Assembly (NCBI GenBank): GCA_016872725.1
Contig: VGZC01000002.1
Coordinates: forward strand, 124,001 to 188,000
Source of the DNA: Planctomycetota bacterium
GTDB lineage: Bacteria > Planctomycetota > Planctomycetia > Pirellulales > Pirellulaceae
Direction: 5' to 3'
Length of the DNA: 64,000 nucleotides
Both the position numbers and the translations under genes were made by a program. This document shows positions 42,023-51,559 of the stretch, one piece after another. Below the pieces are notes generated by a model. It did not search any database, was not told the origin of the DNA, and saw only the letters and a list, made by a program, of their open reading frames with translations. Numbering within the stretch: position 1 is the stretch's first letter; every line of letters begins with the position of its first letter.

Positions 42023-42118
42023 CGGCGAGCCGGGCGTCCGGAGCGGAACGGAGTCGACCGGTCGGATCATTGCGGTTTTTTGGATGGACAGGAAGGCAAA
42101 CGCGTAGGCACAACCGGT

Positions 42119-44617
42119 ATGGATCGAATCGGCCCATTGCTCGTGGTGATTCCCGCCGCGCCGCTCATCAGCGCGGTCGCGATCGCCCTGCTCGCGCCGC
42201 GCCTGCTGCGCGGGATCCGGGAGTTTCCGGCGTTCCTGACGATCGCCGCGTTCGGCGTGTCGCTGATCGCGAGCCTTCTCCTGCTGCGCGAGGTCACCTA
42301 CCATCACGACCATGTCGGCCCCGGCTCGCCGTCGTTCGAGCGCGTCGTCCGGCTCTGGACATGGGCCGACGCGCGCGACGCCTACTGGCAACGGCCCGCG
42401 CTTCCTTCCGACGATCCACGCGCCGAGTCGCCGATCGAGGGCGGCTCGCGCGACTTCACGATCGATATCGCGCTTCGGGCCGACGCGCTCACCGCGACGA
42501 TGCTCGTCATGGTCACCTTCATCTCCACGCTCGTCGCCGTCTTCGGCATGGGTTACATGCAAGGCGACCGGGGGTTTTGGCGGTTCTTCGCCTACGTCTC
42601 GCTCTTCGTCTTCTCGATGACCATGCTCGTTTCGGCGAGCAATTTCCTGTTGCTCTTCGTTTTTTGGGAAGCCGTCGGTCTTTGCAGTTACCTGCTGATC
42701 GGGTTCTGGTACGGGAAACCGTCGGCGGCGTCGGCGGGCAAGAAGGCGTTCCTGGTCAACCGCGTCGGCGATTTCGGTTTCGCGCTCGGCCTGTTCCTGA
42801 TCTGGACCACCTACGGCACGCTCGACTTCCATTCGTCCGCCCGCGTCCGGTCGGACGACGGCGGATCGGAACGGCGGATCCTGGATTCCCTCACGACAGT
42901 TCCGGCGGGCGCGACGGGCGTGGCGTGGGGCGTACTGAGCCGCGACGCCGAGTCGTACCGACACGGCGCGATCGGGTTGGCCATCTGCCTGCTGCTGCTC
43001 GTCGGCGCGTGCGGCAAGAGCGCCCAGTTCCCACTGCACGTTTGGCTCCCCGACGCGATGGAAGGCCCGACGCCCGTCAGCGCGCTCATTCACGCGGCGA
43101 CGATGGTGACCGCCGGAATCTACATGATCGCGCGGTGCACGCCGCTCTTCACCGCCTCGCCCGAGGCGCAGGTCGTGGTCGCGTGCGTGGGCGGATTCAC
43201 CGCGCTGCTCGCCGCGCTCATCGCGCTCACCCAATTCGATCTCAAGAGGGTCCTCGCCTATTCGACCGTCAGCCAGCTCGGCTACATGTTCCTCGCGCTC
43301 GGGGCGGGCACATTCGCGGGCGTGACGTCCGGCATGTTCCACTTGTTCACGCACGCCTTCTTCAAGGCCCTGTTGTTCCTGGGTTCGGGCAGTGTCATGC
43401 ACGCGATGGGCAACGTGATCGACATGCGGCGGTTCGGCGGATTGCGAAAGGTCATGCCGATCACGCACTGGACGTTCCTGATCGGATGCCTCGCGCTCGC
43501 CGGACTTCCGCCATTCGCCGGGTTCTGGAGCAAGGACGCGATCCTGGGCGCGGTCCACGACCGAGCGCATGCGCTGTCGGGCGCGCACGCCGCGCATGAC
43601 GCGACGAACCTCGCGGCGCACGGGCGAGAACGGGCGGACGACGGCGGAACGCGGGTCGTGGAGCCGGGCGAAGGGGTGTGGACGTTGTGGACACCCGAGC
43701 AGGCGGCGGGCGTCTATCAATGGCTGTATTGCGCGGCGCTGCTCACCGCCGGCTTGACCGCCCTGTACACGTTCCGCGCGTTCTTCATGACATTCTACGG
43801 CGCGCGACAAATCCCTCCCGAAGCGGGAGGGCACGCGCATGAATCGCCCGCCGTCATGACCGCGCCGCTCGTCGTCCTCGCCGTCTGCGCCGTTTCGGTC
43901 GGCTGGTTCCTCGATCATTCCTACCAGAGCGATCCGTCGTACCTGCCGGGCGGCCGCGCGAGTTCCGGCAACGTGCTCGGCGACTTCCTCGGCTATGCCC
44001 CGCAACTCGCGGGCGGGGCGATCGCGGCGACGCGGACGCCGGGCCGCTTCCATTTCGATGTCGCGGCGATCAGCGCGCTGATCGCGCTAGGCGGCATCGC
44101 GTTCGCGGCCTTTTTGTACCTCGAGGATCGGCGCGAGGCCGACATGGCATCGGCCTTCCTGCGTTTCCATTGGTATCGTCGGATGCTGGACGCCGACTCG
44201 ATCGCCCGGATCCGCCGATGGAAATCGGTGGACGCGGTGAATCGCTGGGCGGATCGCCTGCGCCTCGGTTGGCTTGCGCGGATCGTTGGACGCGGGGTTC
44301 TGGTCGTTGTCTGGGTCGTCACCGTGCCGCTCATCCTCACACAGTTCGCGTCACCCTACCGGCTGTCGCAGGACAAATTCTATTTCGACGAGATCTACGA
44401 CTGGACGATGGTGCGCCCGCTGAGATGGATCGCCGACCTTTGCGCTGCGCTCGACCGATGGGTGATCGACGGAACGGTGAACATGGTCGGCCGGATCCCG
44501 GTTGTCACGGGCAACCTGATGCGGTCGTTGCATATCGGCCTGCTTCCGTTTTACGCGGTTTCGATGGCGCTCGGCGTCCTCGTGCTCGTTCTGGCGCGAA
44601 CACTTTGGGGATCCTAG
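42119..44617 (+). CDS. nuoL: NADH-quinone oxidoreductase subunit L (antiporter-like)
   Basis: 832 residues, longer than the usual 610-660. Proton-pumping antiporter-like core of ~14 helices: FVFWEAVGLCSYLLIGFWY, GKSAQFPLHVWLPDAMEGPTPVSALIHAATMVTAGIY, LAYSTVSQLGYM. Extra hydrophilic loops occur after helix 2 (~60-115) and near residues 480-530 (DRAHALSGAHAAHDATNL), plus a long C-terminal part with the lateral helix and final helices. ATG at 42119, weak ribosome site. Confidence 0.94.
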   Translation: MDRIGPLLVVIPAAPLISAVAIALLAPRLLRGIREFPAFLTIAAFGVSLIASLLLLREVTYHHDHVGPGSPSFERVVRLWTWADARDAYWQRPALPSDDPRAESPIEGGSRDFTIDIALRADALTATMLVMVTFISTLVAVFGMGYMQGDRGFWRFFAYVSLFVFSMTMLVSASNFLLLFVFWEAVGLCSYLLIGFWYGKPSAASAGKKAFLVNRVGDFGFALGLFLIWTTYGTLDFHSSARVRSDDGGSERRILDSLTTVPAGATGVAWGVLSRDAESYRHGAIGLAICLLLLVGACGKSAQFPLHVWLPDAMEGPTPVSALIHAATMVTAGIYMIARCTPLFTASPEAQVVVACVGGFTALLAALIALTQFDLKRVLAYSTVSQLGYMFLALGAGTFAGVTSGMFHLFTHAFFKALLFLGSGSVMHAMGNVIDMRRFGGLRKVMPITHWTFLIGCLALAGLPPFAGFWSKDAILGAVHDRAHALSGAHAAHDATNLAAHGRERADDGGTRVVEPGEGVWTLWTPEQAAGVYQWLYCAALLTAGLTALYTFRAFFMTFYGARQIPPEAGGHAHESPAVMTAPLVVLAVCAVSVGWFLDHSYQSDPSYLPGGRASSGNVLGDFLGYAPQLAGGAIAATRTPGRFHFDVAAISALIALGGIAFAAFLYLEDRREADMASAFLRFHWYRRMLDADSIARIRRWKSVDAVNRWADRLRLGWLARIVGRGVLVVVWVVTVPLILTQFASPYRLSQDKFYFDEIYDWTMVRPLRWIADLCAALDRWVIDGTVNMVGRIPVVTGNLMRSLHIGLLPFYAVSMALGVLVLVLARTLWGS

Positions 44618-44626
44618 GAACAAGGC

Positions 44627-46297
44627 ATGTTGGACGGACTTTTGTTGGCGAGCATCCTGCTTCCGATGCTCGGCGCGCTCGCGATGGGCTTGCTGGCGCC
44701 GCTGGGCGATGAGGCCGTTCGTCGCGGAGCGCTCGCCGTCGCCCTCGCGACACTCGCCGCGTCGACGACGCTCGTGGCGAACTATCCGGCGAACGGGGCT
44801 GAGGCCGGCGCGTTCGCGACCGTGGTTCGATTGAGCGGCGAAGGGGCGCCGATCGACGTCCGGTTCCACGTCGCGCTCGACGGCCTCGGCCTGTGGATGT
44901 TCGCGCTCGCGCCGGTGTTGCTCGTGACGTCGATTCTGGCGAGCTGGCGGGCGATCGCCGATCGAACGGCCATGTTCCACGGCATGCTGCTCCTGCTCAC
45001 GGGAGGATGCCTCGGCGTATTCACGGCCCGCGACATCATGCTGTTCTATGTCTTCTTCGAATTCACGCTCATTCCGCTCTTTTTTCTGATCGGCATCTGG
45101 GGGAGCGAGGAGCGTCGCTACGCGGCGATCAAGTTCTTCCTGTTCACGCTCGCCGGCAGTCTCCTGACGTTCCTTGGCCTGCTCGCGATCGTCGTCTGGG
45201 ACTTCCGCGAATCGGGCGGGCCGACGATGCAGTTTTCGTTGGACGCGTTGAATACGGGCCTTCGATCCCACCCGCTGCCCGAGCATTGGCAGACGTGGAT
45301 CTTCCTGGCGCTCTTCGCGGGGTTCGCGGTGAAGGTGCCCCTCTTCCCGCTCCATACGTGGTTGCCCCTCGCGCATGTGCAGGCGCCGACGGCGGGAAGC
45401 GTTTTCCTGGCCGGCATTCTGCTGAAGATCGGAACATACGGTTTCCTTCGATTCTGTTTGCCGATGCTTCCGGCCGCGGCGGCGGCCTTGATGCCCGCCA
45501 TGCTGTGGCTCGCCCTGCTCGGCGTCGTGTACGGCGCGCTCGTCGCCCTCGCGCAGCGCGACATCAAGCGGCTGATCGCCTATTCGAGCGTCAGCCACAT
45601 GGGTTTTTGCGTGATGGGCATCTTCGCGCTGAATCCGCTCGGCATCCAAGGCGGCGTCCTCCAGATGCTCAACCACGGGATATCGACCGGCGCCCTGTTC
45701 GCCCTCGTCGGTATGCTCTACGAACGATACCACACGCGGCGGATCGAGGATCTGAGCGGACTGTGCCGTCGCGTGCCCTGGCTGGCGTTCTTCATGGTGC
45801 TGTTCACGCTCTCGAGCATCGGGCTGCCCGGACTCAACGGATTCGCGGGTGAGTTCCTGATCCTGATCGGCATGTTCCAGCGCGCGTTCGGCGAATCGGC
45901 GAGCGATTCGACGGCATCGCTCAAGATCGTCTCCGTGTTGGCGGTCTCCGGGGTCGTGCTGGGCGCCTGGTACATGTTGTGGATGGTGCAGCGCGTCTTC
46001 TTCGGGCCGCTCCGCGAACCCGAGTCCGGCAAGGACGCGGAACAGGGCGCGATCGCCGACCTTTCGTGGCGCGAACGGTGGGCCCTGATGCCGCTCGCGG
46101 CGCTCGCCTTGTGGATCGGCCTGTATCCGGCGTATTTCCTGAACCGCATGGCGCCCGATCTGGAACGCGTTTCGGCGGAAGCCGAGGACGTGGCGCGGTC
46201 GCGATACGCGCCGATCGAATACCGGGCCGAGCGCCCGGGCCTCGATCGGCGCCCTACGGAGGAATCCTCTTGGGAGACCCTTACTCGTGTTGACTGA
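44627..46297 (+). CDS. nuoM: NADH-quinone oxidoreductase subunit M (antiporter-like)
   Basis: 556 residues, multi-helix antiporter-like subunit. Motifs: FFEFTLIPLFFLIGIWG, KVPLFPLHTWLPLAHVQAPTAGSVFLAGILLKIGTYG, LIAYSSVSHMGFC. The C-terminal ~55 residues are hydrophilic. AGGAAC precedes the ATG. Overlaps nuoN by 11 nt. Confidence 0.95.
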   Translation: MLDGLLLASILLPMLGALAMGLLAPLGDEAVRRGALAVALATLAASTTLVANYPANGAEAGAFATVVRLSGEGAPIDVRFHVALDGLGLWMFALAPVLLVTSILASWRAIADRTAMFHGMLLLLTGGCLGVFTARDIMLFYVFFEFTLIPLFFLIGIWGSEERRYAAIKFFLFTLAGSLLTFLGLLAIVVWDFRESGGPTMQFSLDALNTGLRSHPLPEHWQTWIFLALFAGFAVKVPLFPLHTWLPLAHVQAPTAGSVFLAGILLKIGTYGFLRFCLPMLPAAAAALMPAMLWLALLGVVYGALVALAQRDIKRLIAYSSVSHMGFCVMGIFALNPLGIQGGVLQMLNHGISTGALFALVGMLYERYHTRRIEDLSGLCRRVPWLAFFMVLFTLSSIGLPGLNGFAGEFLILIGMFQRAFGESASDSTASLKIVSVLAVSGVVLGAWYMLWMVQRVFFGPLREPESGKDAEQGAIADLSWRERWALMPLAALALWIGLYPAYFLNRMAPDLERVSAEAEDVARSRYAPIEYRAERPGLDRRPTEESSWETLTRVD

Positions 46298-47921
46298 TCC
46301 GCGCACGATCGCCTGGCTTGGACCCGAGATCGTCTTGATCGCAGCCGCCACGGGAATCGTGGTCGCCGGCGCGTTCCTGCGCGGGAGCGCGTTCGCGACG
46401 ATGCGGATCATCGCCGCCGTTTCGATCCTCGCCGCCGGCGCGGCGCTCCGCGTTGGCGAGGCGAACCACTGGATGACCACGGAAACGGGCGAGTGGACGG
46501 GACCGCTTGTCTGCGATCCGCTCGGATTCCTCGTTCGCCATCTCGCGCTGTTCGCCGGCCTTCTGCTCACGCTCATGCTGTCGCGCGGCGCCGACGAACG
46601 AGACGGCACGGAGACGTTGGGCCTGATCCTGTTCCTGACGGTCGGCGCGATGATCGCCGCGCGGGCGAACGAACTGGTCCTCGTCTTCCTGGGCCTCGAA
46701 CTCGTCTCGATCCCGACCTACGCGCTGCTCTACTTGGGAAGAAACGACCGGGATGGGAGCGAGGCGTCGGCCAAGTACTTCTTCCTGAGCATTTTGTCCT
46801 CGGCGTTTTTCCTCTACGGCGCGAGCTTCCTCTACGGTATCGCCGGAACGACATGGATCACGGCGCCCGAGGGCATCGCATCGATCCGCGATGCCGTCTC
46901 GCGCGACCCGCAACCGTTCGCCATGCTCGGTTTGGCGCTGGTGGTCGCCGGCCTCGGATTCAAACTGGCCGCCGTTCCGTTCCATTTCTACGCGCCAGAC
47001 GTCTATCAGGGCACGAATCACCGGAACGCGGCGATCCTCGCGGTGATGCCCAAGGTCGCCGGACTGGCCGTGCTGATCCGGCTGGTCGTCATGGGATTGC
47101 CGGGTGTGCGGAACGAGGTATGGCAGTTGGCCCTCGTTCTCTCGGTGCTCACGATGACGGTCGGCAATGTCTGCGCGCTTTGGCAGACCGACCTGCGCCG
47201 GATGATGGCGTATTCCTCGATCGCCCACGCGGGTTACCTGTTGATCGGGATCGCCGTGGGCGCCGCGGCGGTCGGCGATCCTTTGCCCTATGGCGGCGTG
47301 GCGGCGTCCGTCTATTACTTGTGCGTGTACAGCGTGGCGACGATCGGCCTTTTCGCGGCGCTGCAGAGCCTCGGCGACGGATCGCGCCGCGTCGATTCGC
47401 TCGACCACGTCGCCGGCCTGGGTGTTACCGATCCTTGGAAAGCGGCGGCGCTCGCCGTATTCCTGTTCTCGTTGGCCGGCATTCCTCCACTCGCCGGATT
47501 CTGGGGCAAGCTCACCCTGTTCACGACGGCCATCGGCCAGGCGCTGCGCGGCGAAAGCTCGATGACGCCTTGGTTCCTGGGCCTGGCGCTGATCGCCGTG
47601 GCGAACGCAACGATCGCCGCGGCCTATTACCTGCGCGTCGTCGGATACCTCTATTTCCGAACTCCTCCCGCGACGTCGGCGGATCTTCCGTCGCAATCGG
47701 GGCCGGCCGGCGGACTCGCCGCGTTCCTCGCCGCGTTCCTCGCCGCGTTCCTCGTCCTGGCGATCGGCCTCCACCAAGGACCGCTCGCCGAATGGGCCGA
47801 TCGAGGCGAACGCGGCCTGCGCGCGCTCGAACCGCCGCCAGCCGCGGCCGTTCGCGCCACGGGCCCCCAACACGCCGACATCGCCGATCGTCGTGGTTCG
47901 CTCCGCGAACCACCGGAATAG
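46287..47921 (+). CDS. nuoN: NADH-quinone oxidoreductase subunit N
   Basis: 544 residues, third antiporter-like subunit. Motifs: LGLELVSIPTYALLYLGR, KLAAVPFHFYAPDVYQGTNHRNAAILAVMPKVAG, MMAYSSIAHAGYLLIGI. GTG start at 46287 inside the end of nuoM. A 12-bp repeat gives AAFLAAFLAAFL late in the protein. The last residues (IADRRGSLREPPE) are encoded by a palindromic intergenic repeat, so the gene's end has been extended into it. Confidence 0.94.
   Translation: MLTDPRTIAWLGPEIVLIAAATGIVVAGAFLRGSAFATMRIIAAVSILAAGAALRVGEANHWMTTETGEWTGPLVCDPLGFLVRHLALFAGLLLTLMLSRGADERDGTETLGLILFLTVGAMIAARANELVLVFLGLELVSIPTYALLYLGRNDRDGSEASAKYFFLSILSSAFFLYGASFLYGIAGTTWITAPEGIASIRDAVSRDPQPFAMLGLALVVAGLGFKLAAVPFHFYAPDVYQGTNHRNAAILAVMPKVAGLAVLIRLVVMGLPGVRNEVWQLALVLSVLTMTVGNVCALWQTDLRRMMAYSSIAHAGYLLIGIAVGAAAVGDPLPYGGVAASVYYLCVYSVATIGLFAALQSLGDGSRRVDSLDHVAGLGVTDPWKAAALAVFLFSLAGIPPLAGFWGKLTLFTTAIGQALRGESSMTPWFLGLALIAVANATIAAAYYLRVVGYLYFRTPPATSADLPSQSGPAGGLAAFLAAFLAAFLVLAIGLHQGPLAEWADRGERGLRALEPPPAAAVRATGPQHADIADRRGSLREPPE
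47893..47913. repeat. GTGGTTCGC palindrome, copy 1 (inside the nuoN 3' end)
   Basis: GTGGTTCGC, TCC, GCGAACCAC: perfect 9-bp arms with a 3-nt loop. It is preceded by GATCGTC and followed by CGGAATAG, whose TAG is the nuoN stop. Same 21-mer as 47977-47997 and 50239-50259. Confidence 0.85.
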
Positions 47922-47947
47922 TGTCCGGTTCGGATGAAGGCGACAAG

Positions 47948-47966
47948 TTGATCGCGGAGCGATCAA
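47948..47966. repeat. TTGATCGC palindrome
   Basis: TTGATCGC (47948-47955), GGA, GCGATCAA (47959-47966), exact 8-bp arms with a 3-nt loop; located between copies 1 and 2 of the GTGGTTCGC repeat. Confidence 0.7.
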
Positions 47967-47976
47967 CGACAATGTC

Positions 47977-47997
47977 GTGGTTCGCTCCGCGAACCAC
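47977..47997. repeat. GTGGTTCGC palindrome, copy 2
   Basis: Identical 21-mer to copy 1, with flanks GTC before and CGGAAT after. Between nuoN and the next gene. Confidence 0.85.
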
Positions 47998-48392
47998 CGG
48001 AATGATTGAGAACGGCCGCTGAGTCCGCGAAGCGTCGGGAAGCCGATCGCCGACGAGGCATTGCAAACCGGTAGCCAGGCGGGCAATCACCGCGAGTGCG
48101 CCGCGATTGGGAATCCAAACTTCCTTCCGTCATCGCGGACCAGCGGTCCGTCTCGACCCGTCGTCCGACGACGGATGCTACTGAGAGGATCACCGTTCGG
48201 ACGCGGAGCCCATCACGCGGCGGCATCTTTTCCCGTCGCGCAGGATGTCGCGCGGGGGATGGAGGGTCCGAGTCGCCGCGGCGCCGGATCGACGCTCGGA
48301 AGGCCGGCTGTACGTGAAGGCCGTCGGCCATTAGTCTGATCGTGGAGATTGATCGGGTCGATCTCGCCCTTCTTGGGACGGCGGATCCGCGC

Positions 48393-49787
48393 ATGGTCAA
48401 GAAGCAACGGTCGCCGATCGGCATGCTTCGCAAGCACGTGGGCGACTCGTCCCATCCGGTGCTGGTTTTCGACGCGGACCGCGTCATCGATTACTGCAAT
48501 GAGGCGTGCGGACGGTGGATGGGGGTGGCCGCTTCGGCCCTGCTGGGCCAGACGGCCGCGTATCACTTCGAAACGGTTCGCGGGGGCGCGCCGATCGCGT
48601 CGGACGTCGCGCCGCCGCCCGACGTTTTTGAGGGTCATCGCGTCGAGCGGCGCATCCAGCCGATCGGGCCGGGCGCGGGTGGCCCTCGCCTCGCCACGTT
48701 CCTGCCGCTCACCACCGACGGCGTGATCCGCGGCGCTCTGATGATCGCCGATCCAGTCGACGCGCCGCCGGTCCGCGATCGCGGGGAGGACGTGGAGGAG
48801 CCCGAGTCGGCGCGGCTGCATCGCGCGTTGGCCGAATTCCGCCGAAGGCTTGGAAAATTCTACGACCTGCCGTCGCTCGTCGGCCGCGATCCGGCGATCG
48901 AACGCGTGCGAGCTCAAGTGGTCGCCTCGGCCGCGACGGCCGCGCGCACGCTCATCCACGGCCCGGCCGGCAGCGGCCGCGAACAGGTCGCGCGGACTAT
49001 CCACTACCATCGAAACGGTTCCGAGCCGGGTGTCCTGGTTCCCCTCGCGTGCTCGTTGGTCGACGCTGAACTCCTTCACACGACGATCACGGCCCACGCG
49101 TACGCCGATCCCGAATTCGACACGTCACGCCCCCTCACGCTCCTGCTGCTCGACGTCGATCGACTGAGCCCCGACGGGCAGCGCGCGCTGGTGGACATCA
49201 CGCACGACCGCGAGCTTCGGATCCACACGCTGGCGACGGCCGGGCAATCGGTATTGCGCTCGGCGTCGGACGGCGGTTTCCGCGAGGATCTCGCGCATTA
49301 TCTCTCGACGATCGAAATCGAGATGCCGCCGCTTCGCGATCGTCCCCGCGACATCCCCCTCCTCGCGCAGCGATTCGTCGAGATGCGCAACGCCGAGGGG
49401 CTGAAGTCGTTGAGCGGCTTCGACGAGGACGCCCTTGATCAGCTCGTCCAATACGTCTGGCCGGGCAACCTCGACGAACTGCGCGAGGTGACGCGCGAGG
49501 CATACGAGCGGGCGGCCGGGCCGTACATCCGCCGGACCGACCTTCCGTCCTCCTTCGCGGCGGCCGACCGGGCCCGAAAACACCCGCCTCGACCGATCGA
49601 ACCGATCCGGCTCGATGCCGTTCTCGAACGGTTCGAACGCGAGATCCTCGAGCGCGCGCTCGAACTGGCGAAAGGCAATCGGGCCCGCGCGGCGAGACTG
49701 CTCGGCGTCTCCCGACCGCGCCTGCTCCGCCGAATCGGCCAACTGGCCTTGGACGGCTCGAAGTCCGATCCTCCGGAGCCGACGTGA
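48393..49787 (+). CDS. degenerate sigma54-activator-like AAA+ regulator with a PAS-like domain
   Basis: 464 residues. PAS-like domain at ~20-125 (HPVLVFDADRVIDYCNEACG). AAA+ domain from ~165: Walker A reads GPAGSGRE, with the essential Lys replaced by Arg; Walker B reads LLLLDVDRL, with DE replaced by DV; the GAFTGA loop that contacts sigma54 is absent because that region is shortened; FREDLAHYL lacks the second Arg of the usual FRxDLYYRL. The C-terminus is a Fis-type HTH (ALELAKGNRARAARLLGVSR). Likely a DNA-binding protein that no longer hydrolyses ATP or works with sigma54. Start uncertain: ATG 48393 or GTG 48342. Confidence 0.85.
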   Translation: MVKKQRSPIGMLRKHVGDSSHPVLVFDADRVIDYCNEACGRWMGVAASALLGQTAAYHFETVRGGAPIASDVAPPPDVFEGHRVERRIQPIGPGAGGPRLATFLPLTTDGVIRGALMIADPVDAPPVRDRGEDVEEPESARLHRALAEFRRRLGKFYDLPSLVGRDPAIERVRAQVVASAATAARTLIHGPAGSGREQVARTIHYHRNGSEPGVLVPLACSLVDAELLHTTITAHAYADPEFDTSRPLTLLLLDVDRLSPDGQRALVDITHDRELRIHTLATAGQSVLRSASDGGFREDLAHYLSTIEIEMPPLRDRPRDIPLLAQRFVEMRNAEGLKSLSGFDEDALDQLVQYVWPGNLDELREVTREAYERAAGPYIRRTDLPSSFAAADRARKHPPRPIEPIRLDAVLERFEREILERALELAKGNRARAARLLGVSRPRLLRRIGQLALDGSKSDPPEPT

Positions 49788-50236
49788 TGCGCGACGCGCT
49801 GATCCTGTGCGAACCGGCGTCCGAGTGGGTTTCGAGCCTTCGGGCGCATCTCGACGCGGCGGGTATCCGCGTCATCGAGACGCGGTCGCCGAGGGACGCG
49901 TGGGGGGAATTGCGCGCGAGGCCGACGAGCATCGTGTGCTGGTCGCTCGCGTTCACGTCGCCCGAGCGCGTCGCGGAACGCATTTTCGCGCAGCGGATCG
50001 AGTATCCCCGATCTCGTCCGGTCGCCCTCGCGCGGCGCGGGATGTGGCGAGGCTGGATCGAATGGGCCCGCGAGGCGGGCGCCGTCGACGTGCTCGGTTC
50101 GACCCGCGATCTTCGCCGCGCGGCCGCGTGGTTCGTCGATCATGTCGCCCGAAGCGCGCCGAAGGTCGACCCGCGCCCCTCGCACGTTCTCATCGACCCG
50201 TCATGGCGATTGCCGTGGGATGTCCCGGCGACCTAG
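49787..50236 (+). CDS. receiver-like protein coupled to the degenerate AAA+ regulator
   Basis: 149 residues. ATG shares an A with the previous stop (TGATG), so translation is coupled. The pattern is that of a CheY-like fold (ALILCEPASEWVSSLRAHLDAAGIRVI, ending in an amphipathic helix), but the phospho-acceptor region (TSIVCWSLAF) has no Asp and the late Lys is not evident. Probably a pseudo-receiver that regulates or binds its partner. The stop (TAG at 50234) is directly followed by a GTGGTTCGC palindrome. Confidence 0.68.
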   Translation: MRDALILCEPASEWVSSLRAHLDAAGIRVIETRSPRDAWGELRARPTSIVCWSLAFTSPERVAERIFAQRIEYPRSRPVALARRGMWRGWIEWAREAGAVDVLGSTRDLRRAAAWFVDHVARSAPKVDPRPSHVLIDPSWRLPWDVPAT

Positions 50237-50238
50237 TC

Positions 50239-50259
50239 GTGGTTCGCTCCGCGAACCAC
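50239..50259. repeat. GTGGTTCGC palindrome, copy 3
   Basis: Same 21-mer as at 47893 and 47977, starting 3 nt after the stop codon of the receiver-like gene; again preceded by GTC and followed by CGG. It sits in the 231-nt spacer before mrp. Confidence 0.85.
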
Positions 50260-50467
50260 CGGCATCGCGGACTTCATCGCGCGGGACAATCCAGAAGCAG
50301 CTCGCCAATGGATTCAGAGTAGCCGTCCGTTGCGCGACGAAACCGGCGAGAACGGACCGCGACTCGCGCACGGTTTGGATGCGGGGGCCGAATTCGAGCT
50401 CCCTTTCCGAATCGGGGGGTGCGTGCTAGAAATAGAATACGACCCGATTTCCGTCCGGAGGCCTCCC

Positions 50468-51559
50468 ATGCCCGAGCCGTTGCTCGATGTCGAATCGGTC
50501 CGCGAGGCGCTTGCCGACTTTCCCGATCCCGAGACGGGTCGCGGCGCATTGGCCATGGATCAGATCCGCGACGTGCGCGTCACGGGGTCGGATCTGCGCA
50601 TGACCGTCGCCCTGACGTCGCATTCCCGCATCCTGTGGCCCGATGTCGAACACGCGATCGAGGCGCGTCTGCGCGGACACTTCGCCGATTTGGGACGCCT
50701 GACGATCGACCGCGCCGATCACGCGCGTCCTCCGATGAAGCTCGGCGAAATCGGTCTGGCCGCGAAGTCGGTCATCGCCGTCGGATCCGGAAAGGGCGGC
50801 GTCGGGAAGAGCACGATCTCCGTATCGCTCGCCTACGCGCTGCTCGACGCCGGTTCCCGAGTCGGCTTGATGGACGCGGACGTGTACGGTCCGAGCGTTC
50901 CCCAATTGACGGGCACGTCCGACGTGCGGGGCGTCTCGGGGACGGGCGGGAACCGAATGGAACCCGTGGTTCGCAACGGCATGCCGATCATGTCGGTCGG
51001 TTATTTGGTTCCTCCGGACCAAGCGGTCATCTGGCGCGGTCCGATGCTGCACGGCGCCGTGATGCAGTTCCTGCGCGATACGGAGTGGGGCGAACTGGAT
51101 TACCTGATCGTCGACATGCCGCCCGGCACGGGGGACGTGGCGATCACGATTTCCCAAGCCATTCCGCTCACCGGCGCCGTGGTCGTGTGCACGCCGCAGG
51201 AAGTCGCCTTGCTCGACGCGGTCAAGGCGATCGCCATGTTCCGCAAAGTGAACATCCCCGTGCTGGGAATGGTCGAGAACATGAGCGGGTTCATCTGCCC
51301 CGACACGGGGAAGCGGTACGACATTTTTGGACGGGGCGGAGCTCGGGCGAAGGCCGAGGAACTCGGGATTGCCTTCTTAGGCGAGGCGCCGATCCACATC
51401 GCGCTTCGGGAACGGGGTGATGACGGCGCGACGATCGACAACATCCACGATCCGGTGGTGGGCCCCTATCTGCGTTCGATCGCGCACACGCTCGTGAAAA
51501 ACCTCGCGACCGCCGCGGCGGCACGTCCCGCTCGACCCGCGCTGCCCGTGCTCGGCTAA
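50468..51559 (+). CDS. mrp: Mrp/ApbC-type iron-sulfur cluster carrier ATPase
   Basis: 363 residues. N-terminal MIP18/DUF59-like domain (~1-90), then a P-loop ATPase with deviant Walker A GSGKGGVGKST near residue 110, DADVYGPSVPQL, and VDMPPGTGD. Family members carry [4Fe-4S] clusters to targets. The usual C-x2-C pair near the end of the ATPase (CPHC-like) reads CPDTGKRYDIFG here, so the second Cys is missing. GGAGG (50457-50461) precedes the ATG. Confidence 0.93.
   Translation: MPEPLLDVESVREALADFPDPETGRGALAMDQIRDVRVTGSDLRMTVALTSHSRILWPDVEHAIEARLRGHFADLGRLTIDRADHARPPMKLGEIGLAAKSVIAVGSGKGGVGKSTISVSLAYALLDAGSRVGLMDADVYGPSVPQLTGTSDVRGVSGTGGNRMEPVVRNGMPIMSVGYLVPPDQAVIWRGPMLHGAVMQFLRDTEWGELDYLIVDMPPGTGDVAITISQAIPLTGAVVVCTPQEVALLDAVKAIAMFRKVNIPVLGMVENMSGFICPDTGKRYDIFGRGGARAKAEELGIAFLGEAPIHIALRERGDDGATIDNIHDPVVGPYLRSIAHTLVKNLATAAAARPARPALPVLG

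Follow-up and report, generated by a model that had tools for sequence, protein, structure and literature searches.

A planctomycete regulator family with the domains of a sigma54 activator, a degenerate AAA+ domain and a receiver-fold partner

Does a protein that is built like a sigma54-dependent activator still work as one after most of its ATPase motifs have been lost, and if not, what kind of regulator may it have become? The question is raised by a Pirellulaceae gene in the window (the whole stretch of 64,000 nucleotides that was analyzed), which lies where the earlier note had placed it and whose ATG matches the start in relatives (Table 1). The encoded protein has an AAA+ fold with a lid and a Fis-type HTH, a feature of sigma54-dependent enhancer-binding proteins. 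PAS_4, Sigma54_activat, Sigma54_activ_2, AAA_lid_14 and HTH_8 all exceed the Pfam cut-offs, which bears out the PAS-like and Fis-type HTH domains described before, and NCBIfam activator models match the protein, none of them at cut-off. For the AF2 model (pLDDT 89.4) the top AAA+ match is FleQ (Z 22.9 over 222 residues), and the structural matches, together with an ungapped alignment to ZraR, support the proposed descent from a sigma54 activator. Matches to the RtcR-type CARF_AAA_HTH of PADLOC were set aside, as only the common AAA+ and HTH region is matched.

Table 1. Features of the regulator gene and of the gene behind it, in positions of the window
Feature	Position	Strand	Basis
Regulator gene, PAS - pseudo-AAA+ - lid - Fis-type HTH, 464 aa	48393..49787	+	ORF, Pfam
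PAS_4 domain	48447..48749	+	Pfam PF08448, E 2.8e-06
Degenerate sigma54-activator AAA+ domain	48876..49334	+	Pfam PF00158 / PF14532; structural matches ZraR, FleQ, NtrX, VpsR
Walker A loop GPAGSGR, Lys to Arg	48960..48980	+	motif reading
Former Walker B strand TLLLLDVDRL, DE pair lost	49137..49166	+	alignment
Tyr at second Arg of FRxDLYYRL, first Arg present	49299..49301	+	alignment
AAA+ lid domain	49335..49580	+	Pfam PF25601, E 2.2e-16
Asp at sensor II Arg (WPGN-x-REL to WPGNLDEL)	49473..49475	+	alignment
Fis-type HTH (HTH_8)	49623..49742	+	Pfam PF02954, E 1.1e-10
Partner gene, 150 aa when read from GTG (an ATG lies at 49787); receiver fold lacking the phospho-acceptor Asp	49784..50236	+	

Six of the seven scored ATPase residues are lost from the protein, and the only intact one is the first Arg of FRxDL. 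The losses comprise the Walker A Lys, Walker B, the GAFTGA loop, the sensor I Asn, the second Arg of FRxDLYYRL and the sensor II Arg. As had been read from the sequence, the P-loop has Arg in place of Lys (GPAGSGRE), the GAFTGA loop is absent (the loop is also shorter), and an Arg is gone from FRxDLYYRL, which here reads FREDLAHYL; the missing residue is the second Arg, which we take to be the arginine finger by PspF numbering. For Walker B the loss stands, but the change of DE to DV given by the earlier note is one of two possible registers, and in the ungapped alignment to ZraR it is rather D to L and E to D (TLFLDEIGDI vs TLLLLDVDRL); the catalytic Glu is absent in both. Beyond these changes, sensor I has gone from AATN/H to ATAG (Asn/His to Gly), the sensor II Arg is lost, the second loop ahead of sensor I is shorter, and a receiver-like gene lies directly behind the regulator gene. 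By comparison, the seven paralogs read in the host genome each have all seven residues, as do the 16 comparison activators, nine of which were assigned to that group after their motifs had been seen. GAFTGA, the Walker A Lys, the Walker B DE, the complete pair of FRxDLYYRL arginines and the sensor II Arg, all features of functional sigma54 activators, are lacking, and judged from its motifs the protein is without the standard parts for sigma54 remodelling. The sigma54 system itself has not been lost from the host, since the genome encodes rpoN and intact activators; 11 other places in it match the protein, and the seven of these that were read are canonical.

The loss of six of seven residues could be the mark of a pseudogene, or of a copy that decays fast in the host genome only. 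The related genomes make this explanation extremely improbable. A degenerate member of the family was found in 51 of 59 (47 by tblastn, four by a later profile search), so that the motif changes are conserved in relatives, the point on which the earlier note had proposed a family check. The tblastn matches run from the PAS region on in 42 of the 47 genomes and do not span this region in the other five. Twelve genomes without a tblastn family match were re-searched with the profile, and these yielded the four further degenerate members (L232-L235), which are outside both the main alignment and the count of partner genes below. In eight of the 59 relatives no degenerate member was seen among the best matches, and the matches read there are canonical. 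Close homologs with intact motifs, which would have pointed to simple decay, were not found; the intact relatives seen are paralogs that lie beyond a supported branch. With the same losses throughout the family, open reading frames and low dN/dS among relatives, local decay of a single copy is rejected and this explanation as a whole is largely refuted.

The selection on the family was estimated from pairs of relatives, all outside the host's own genus. For the whole gene, 19 of 21 pairs from two genera give a dN/dS of 0.02-0.11, with dS saturated in the other two and above 1 in many of the rest. For the AAA+ domain, dN/dS in five pairs is 0.02-0.05, the lowest or near-lowest of the domains. 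These ratios indicate that the family protein is maintained under purifying selection. The mean frequency of the top residue in the order set is 0.63 for the HTH, 0.52 for the lid, 0.48 for the AAA+ domain and 0.40 for the PAS domain. Degenerate as it is, the AAA+ domain is still one of the most strongly constrained regions of the gene.

How far the losses extend was read from an alignment of 152 sequences, of which 111 are mostly from the order, 25 from other families of the class and 16 are the comparison activators; the order label is approximate for L134-L192, in which L180 duplicates L108 from another family. Two rows of the alignment have no P-loop. GAFTGA is absent from all 111 order-level and all 25 other-family sequences (0/136), and the same holds for the Walker B DE in register (0/111 and 0/25; 0/136), a count that leaves out 14 family members with a DE further along (mostly VDEL). 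Both motifs are also absent in L232-L235. The Walker A Lys is present in 16 of the 111 order-level sequences vs 18 of the 25 from other families, and 75 of the 111 have Arg in its place. For the sensor II Arg the counts are 3/111 and 12/25, with Asp at this position in 67 of the order-level sequences. The first finger Arg is found in 37/111 and 9/25 and the second in 28/111 and 6/25, so the loss of finger arginines is common but not universal in the family. Altogether, zero to three of the seven ATPase residues are intact in the order set and zero to five in the other families, against seven in every comparison activator. The loops have become shorter as well: the median of loop 1 (the spacing from the Walker A Lys to Walker B) is 56-57 in the family vs 64 aa in the comparison activators, and that of loop 2 is 28-29 vs 39 aa. 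The first and last P-loop glycines, on the other hand, are found in 103 and 99 of the 111 sequences.

These counts bear on the alternative that the protein is a sigma54 activator with an unusual loop, which borrows its ATPase activity by forming a mixed ring with an intact paralog. Although the host has such paralogs as well as rpoN, and one or the other finger-region Arg is present in part of the family, GAFTGA is absent from 136 of 136 sequences, the median length of both loops is reduced and 108 of 111 have lost the sensor II Arg, and we regard a mixed ring as very unlikely.

As other families of the class often still carry the Walker A Lys, the erosion looks stepwise: the loops and Walker B would have been lost first, and the Lys and the sensor II Arg later, within this taxonomic order. 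The four members found by the later search, from Pirellulaceae or related genomes, have a P-loop that is eroded further, with the last glycine lost in all four, and may represent a final stage of ATP-site decay.

A quick tree of 94 rows (midpoint root, 40 of 91 inner branches without support) separates the 16 comparison activators from all other rows by a branch whose support is 100. That no family member has GAFTGA is partly circular, because nine of these activators were placed by their motifs; the tree branch is a separate support. A horizontally acquired oddity is not favored, as the family rows in the tree cluster largely by taxon. Of 33 hand-picked loci of the class that were read (L100-L132, with L129 taken from the tblastn list), 30 are family members. 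At E <= 1e-60, 169 of 198 class genomes have a match, which is not a count of the family since canonical activators also reach this score. In the search of the phylum, the four top-scoring loci outside the class (L225-L228) are canonical activators; by profile score alone they cannot be told apart from the weakest family members. A sequence labelled as a Bacillota MAG (L190:4388-5692) also came up with the family query and has the motifs of an ordinary sigma54 activator.

Which known regulators does this family resemble? Kinship with sigma54 activators and the loss of GAFTGA are shared with the sigma54-independent kind that includes TyrR, DhaR and VpsR, and from its motifs the closest known kind is that of the GAFTGA-less activators, E. 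coli DhaR in particular. DhaR likewise has a Fis HTH behind a GAFTGA-less AAA+ domain, and is without the Walker B pair (LEKI), the finger arginines (FSRQLYYAL) and the sensor II Arg; unlike the window protein, it retains the Walker A Lys and has a loop 2 of full length, and its partners are kinase subunits vs a receiver-fold protein here. VpsR of Vibrio cholerae has a receiver-type N-terminus in the same chain, whereas the N-terminus here is a PAS domain and the receiver-fold protein is separate. Its AAA+ domain matches our model with Z 21.2, so that the likeness is one of fold and of published description. E. coli TyrR, in which the HTH sits at the protein end, is without GAFTGA too, but has the Walker A Lys, the Walker B DE, both finger arginines and the sensor II Arg, and of these the window protein shares only the first finger arginine.

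TyrR is described as not sigma54-dependent in the accessible part of one source (PMC3162934). In the available text of another, VpsR is a GAFTGA-less protein that works at sigma70 promoters with no need for ATP, and the NtrC proteins of Caulobacter and Rhodobacter capsulatus, in which the L1 loop with GAFTGA is deleted, also work at sigma70 promoters; Caulobacter NtrC needs its Walker A and B residues and R. capsulatus NtrC needs ATP binding (PMC10274813). As the known GAFTGA-less relatives act there according to these parts of the two sources, a promoter of the sigma70 type is likely for the planctomycete regulator as well.

The earlier note called the protein ATP-independent, which goes further than the sequence does: since the P-loop glycines are largely kept, nucleotide binding without hydrolysis is possible. 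A related explanation is that the altered P-loop binds a nucleotide or cyclic dinucleotide without hydrolysis, and that this ligand, instead of the PAS domain, sets the active state, the part that c-di-GMP plays for VpsR and FleQ. VpsR structures are described as c-di-GMP bound, G190, G193 and G195 are invariant in an alignment of 51 rows, and both the frequent exchange of Lys for Arg and the retention of the Lys in most sequences from other families would agree with a pocket still in use. The conservation of the glycines may, however, be structural, and the frequent Asp at sensor II, the loss of the Walker B pair and the loss of the last glycine in L232-L235 argue against a ligand at this site. 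Neither was the ExxxR feature of FleQ, as named in the accessible portion of PMC10714721, seen by eye in the window protein. We regard a P-loop ligand as possible but less likely than not.

The gene behind the regulator may be part of the answer. Its start overlaps the last bases of the regulator stop codon, and its product has no Pfam match. The alignment-based AF2 model (pLDDT 88.7) has a receiver fold, with a match to 2qxy (VIA-align Z 17.3, rmsd 2.5, 119 residues). At the position of the phospho-acceptor Asp, 25 of 28 sequences have Glu and the window protein has Ser, and at the Lys position 23 of 28 have Ser, both positions being located by strand ends and not by superposition. The atypical or pseudo-receivers TadZ/CpaE and HP1043, which are among the best fold matches, also have a receiver fold without this Asp; the partner differs from these in having no Pfam match and in being tied by gene order to one regulator. 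In the profile search it was found downstream of the regulator in 30 of 47 relatives, with no partner detected in the other 17, and at 37 of 60 scanned loci (60 of at least 80 found, two of the 60 canonical). Among the 33 class loci seven have it, four of these from other families, where it is present at only four of 25 loci. A fusion of partner and regulator was considered and set aside: the partner profile matched four of the 152 regulators, of which L006, L227 and L129 are canonical activators, and the fourth, L076, is a family member with a weak match (E 2.8e-4).

We consider it probable that the protein is a sigma54-independent, hydrolysis-free regulator derived from a sigma54 activator, in which the AAA+ domain is a scaffold under the control of the PAS domain and the pseudo-receiver. 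The earlier note had called it a DNA-binding sensor, a reading suggested by the Fis HTH and the PAS domain. The HTH would bind DNA as a dimer or higher oligomer, with the AAA+ body as the scaffold for assembly, and the PAS domain and the partner would set the active state; the partner may dock onto the regulator as the receiver domain within NtrC does, though in trans and phosphate-free. The regulator could be a repressor, or an activator of a sigma70-type promoter. A wider proposal, which we put forward as rather doubtful, is that of a class-wide split relative of NtrC whose two signaling parts are both dead. Its receiver, with a phosphomimetic Glu, would serve in trans as an invariable allosteric subunit, and the AAA+ body would use its largely conserved, Lys-less P-loop as a sensor pocket. 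The pair would control a core regulon of planctomycetes with no need for phosphate transfer, ATP hydrolysis or sigma54.

Gene order offers a candidate for the target. All 27 relatives with an Mrp gene (at least 40% identity, less than 1 kb downstream, same strand) also have the partner, and the Mrp protein matches a Pfam model described as a NUBPL iron-transfer P-loop NTPase. NuoN lies less than 1 kb upstream in only 11 of 47 relatives, a raw count with respect to contig ends. Because the gene of a NUBPL-type ATPase adjoins repeatedly and nuoN lies ahead in some genomes, respiratory complex I or its iron-sulfur supply is a candidate target, on synteny alone. In the window (42080-51559, and on to 54695) the genes run nuoL, nuoM, nuoN, regulator, partner and the NUBPL/Mrp ATPase; beyond them, an M50 peptidase and LpxB are encoded on the opposite strand. 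This arrangement is seen partly or wholly in some of the 47 relatives. At L100-L103 (family f21), lpxB adjoins the regulator instead of nuo and mrp, so the neighborhood differs between families.

A search of the literature, with most subscription journals outside its scope, gave no description of this regulator family. A 2004 study reportedly dealt with activators of Pirellula. The only paper found with both 'planctomycet' and 'GAFTGA' retains, according to its accessible text, only sequences that bear GAFTGA (PMC12316311), and the family would therefore be dropped there. Its motifs place the family on a known path (TyrR, DhaR), but further along, and its partner is of another type. ATP motifs are retained in TyrR and in NtrC of Caulobacter and R. 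capsulatus, and DhaR has lost several, whereas the planctomycete family has lost more, and class-wide. With members that have the Walker A Lys and members that do not, the loss of the motor can be traced stage by stage. The family also adds a candidate conserved regulator to the Planctomycetia, and calls for caution in annotation, as the dead domain passes the Pfam cut-offs for sigma54 activators while no NCBIfam model matches at cut-off.

No DNA site, target or ligand of the regulator was found in this analysis, and no palindrome could be spotted when the upstream regions of two genera were aligned and inspected. The alignment upstream of the regulator (L214-L223) has a conserved TATAAT-like block, which reads GCGTCTATAAT in one genus and GTTTATAATNCGAAGTTTG in a second; the regulator gene may itself be transcribed from it as a sigma70-type promoter. 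The palindrome TGGTTCGCTCCGCGAACCA around the gene was rejected as specific evidence for a binding site, as it has 31 sites genome-wide and the look of a REP element. Such REP-like palindromes lie at 47894-47912, 47947-47967, 47978-47996 and 50240-50258, sharing the core CGCTCCGCG/CGCGGAGCG and differing in their complementary arms. The pattern TGGTTCGCNNNGCGAACCA has 31 sites in the genome vs none for a control pattern, with three pairs 84-86 bases apart. Y1_Tnp proteins are linked to REP elements, and the host genome has three Y1_Tnp matches.
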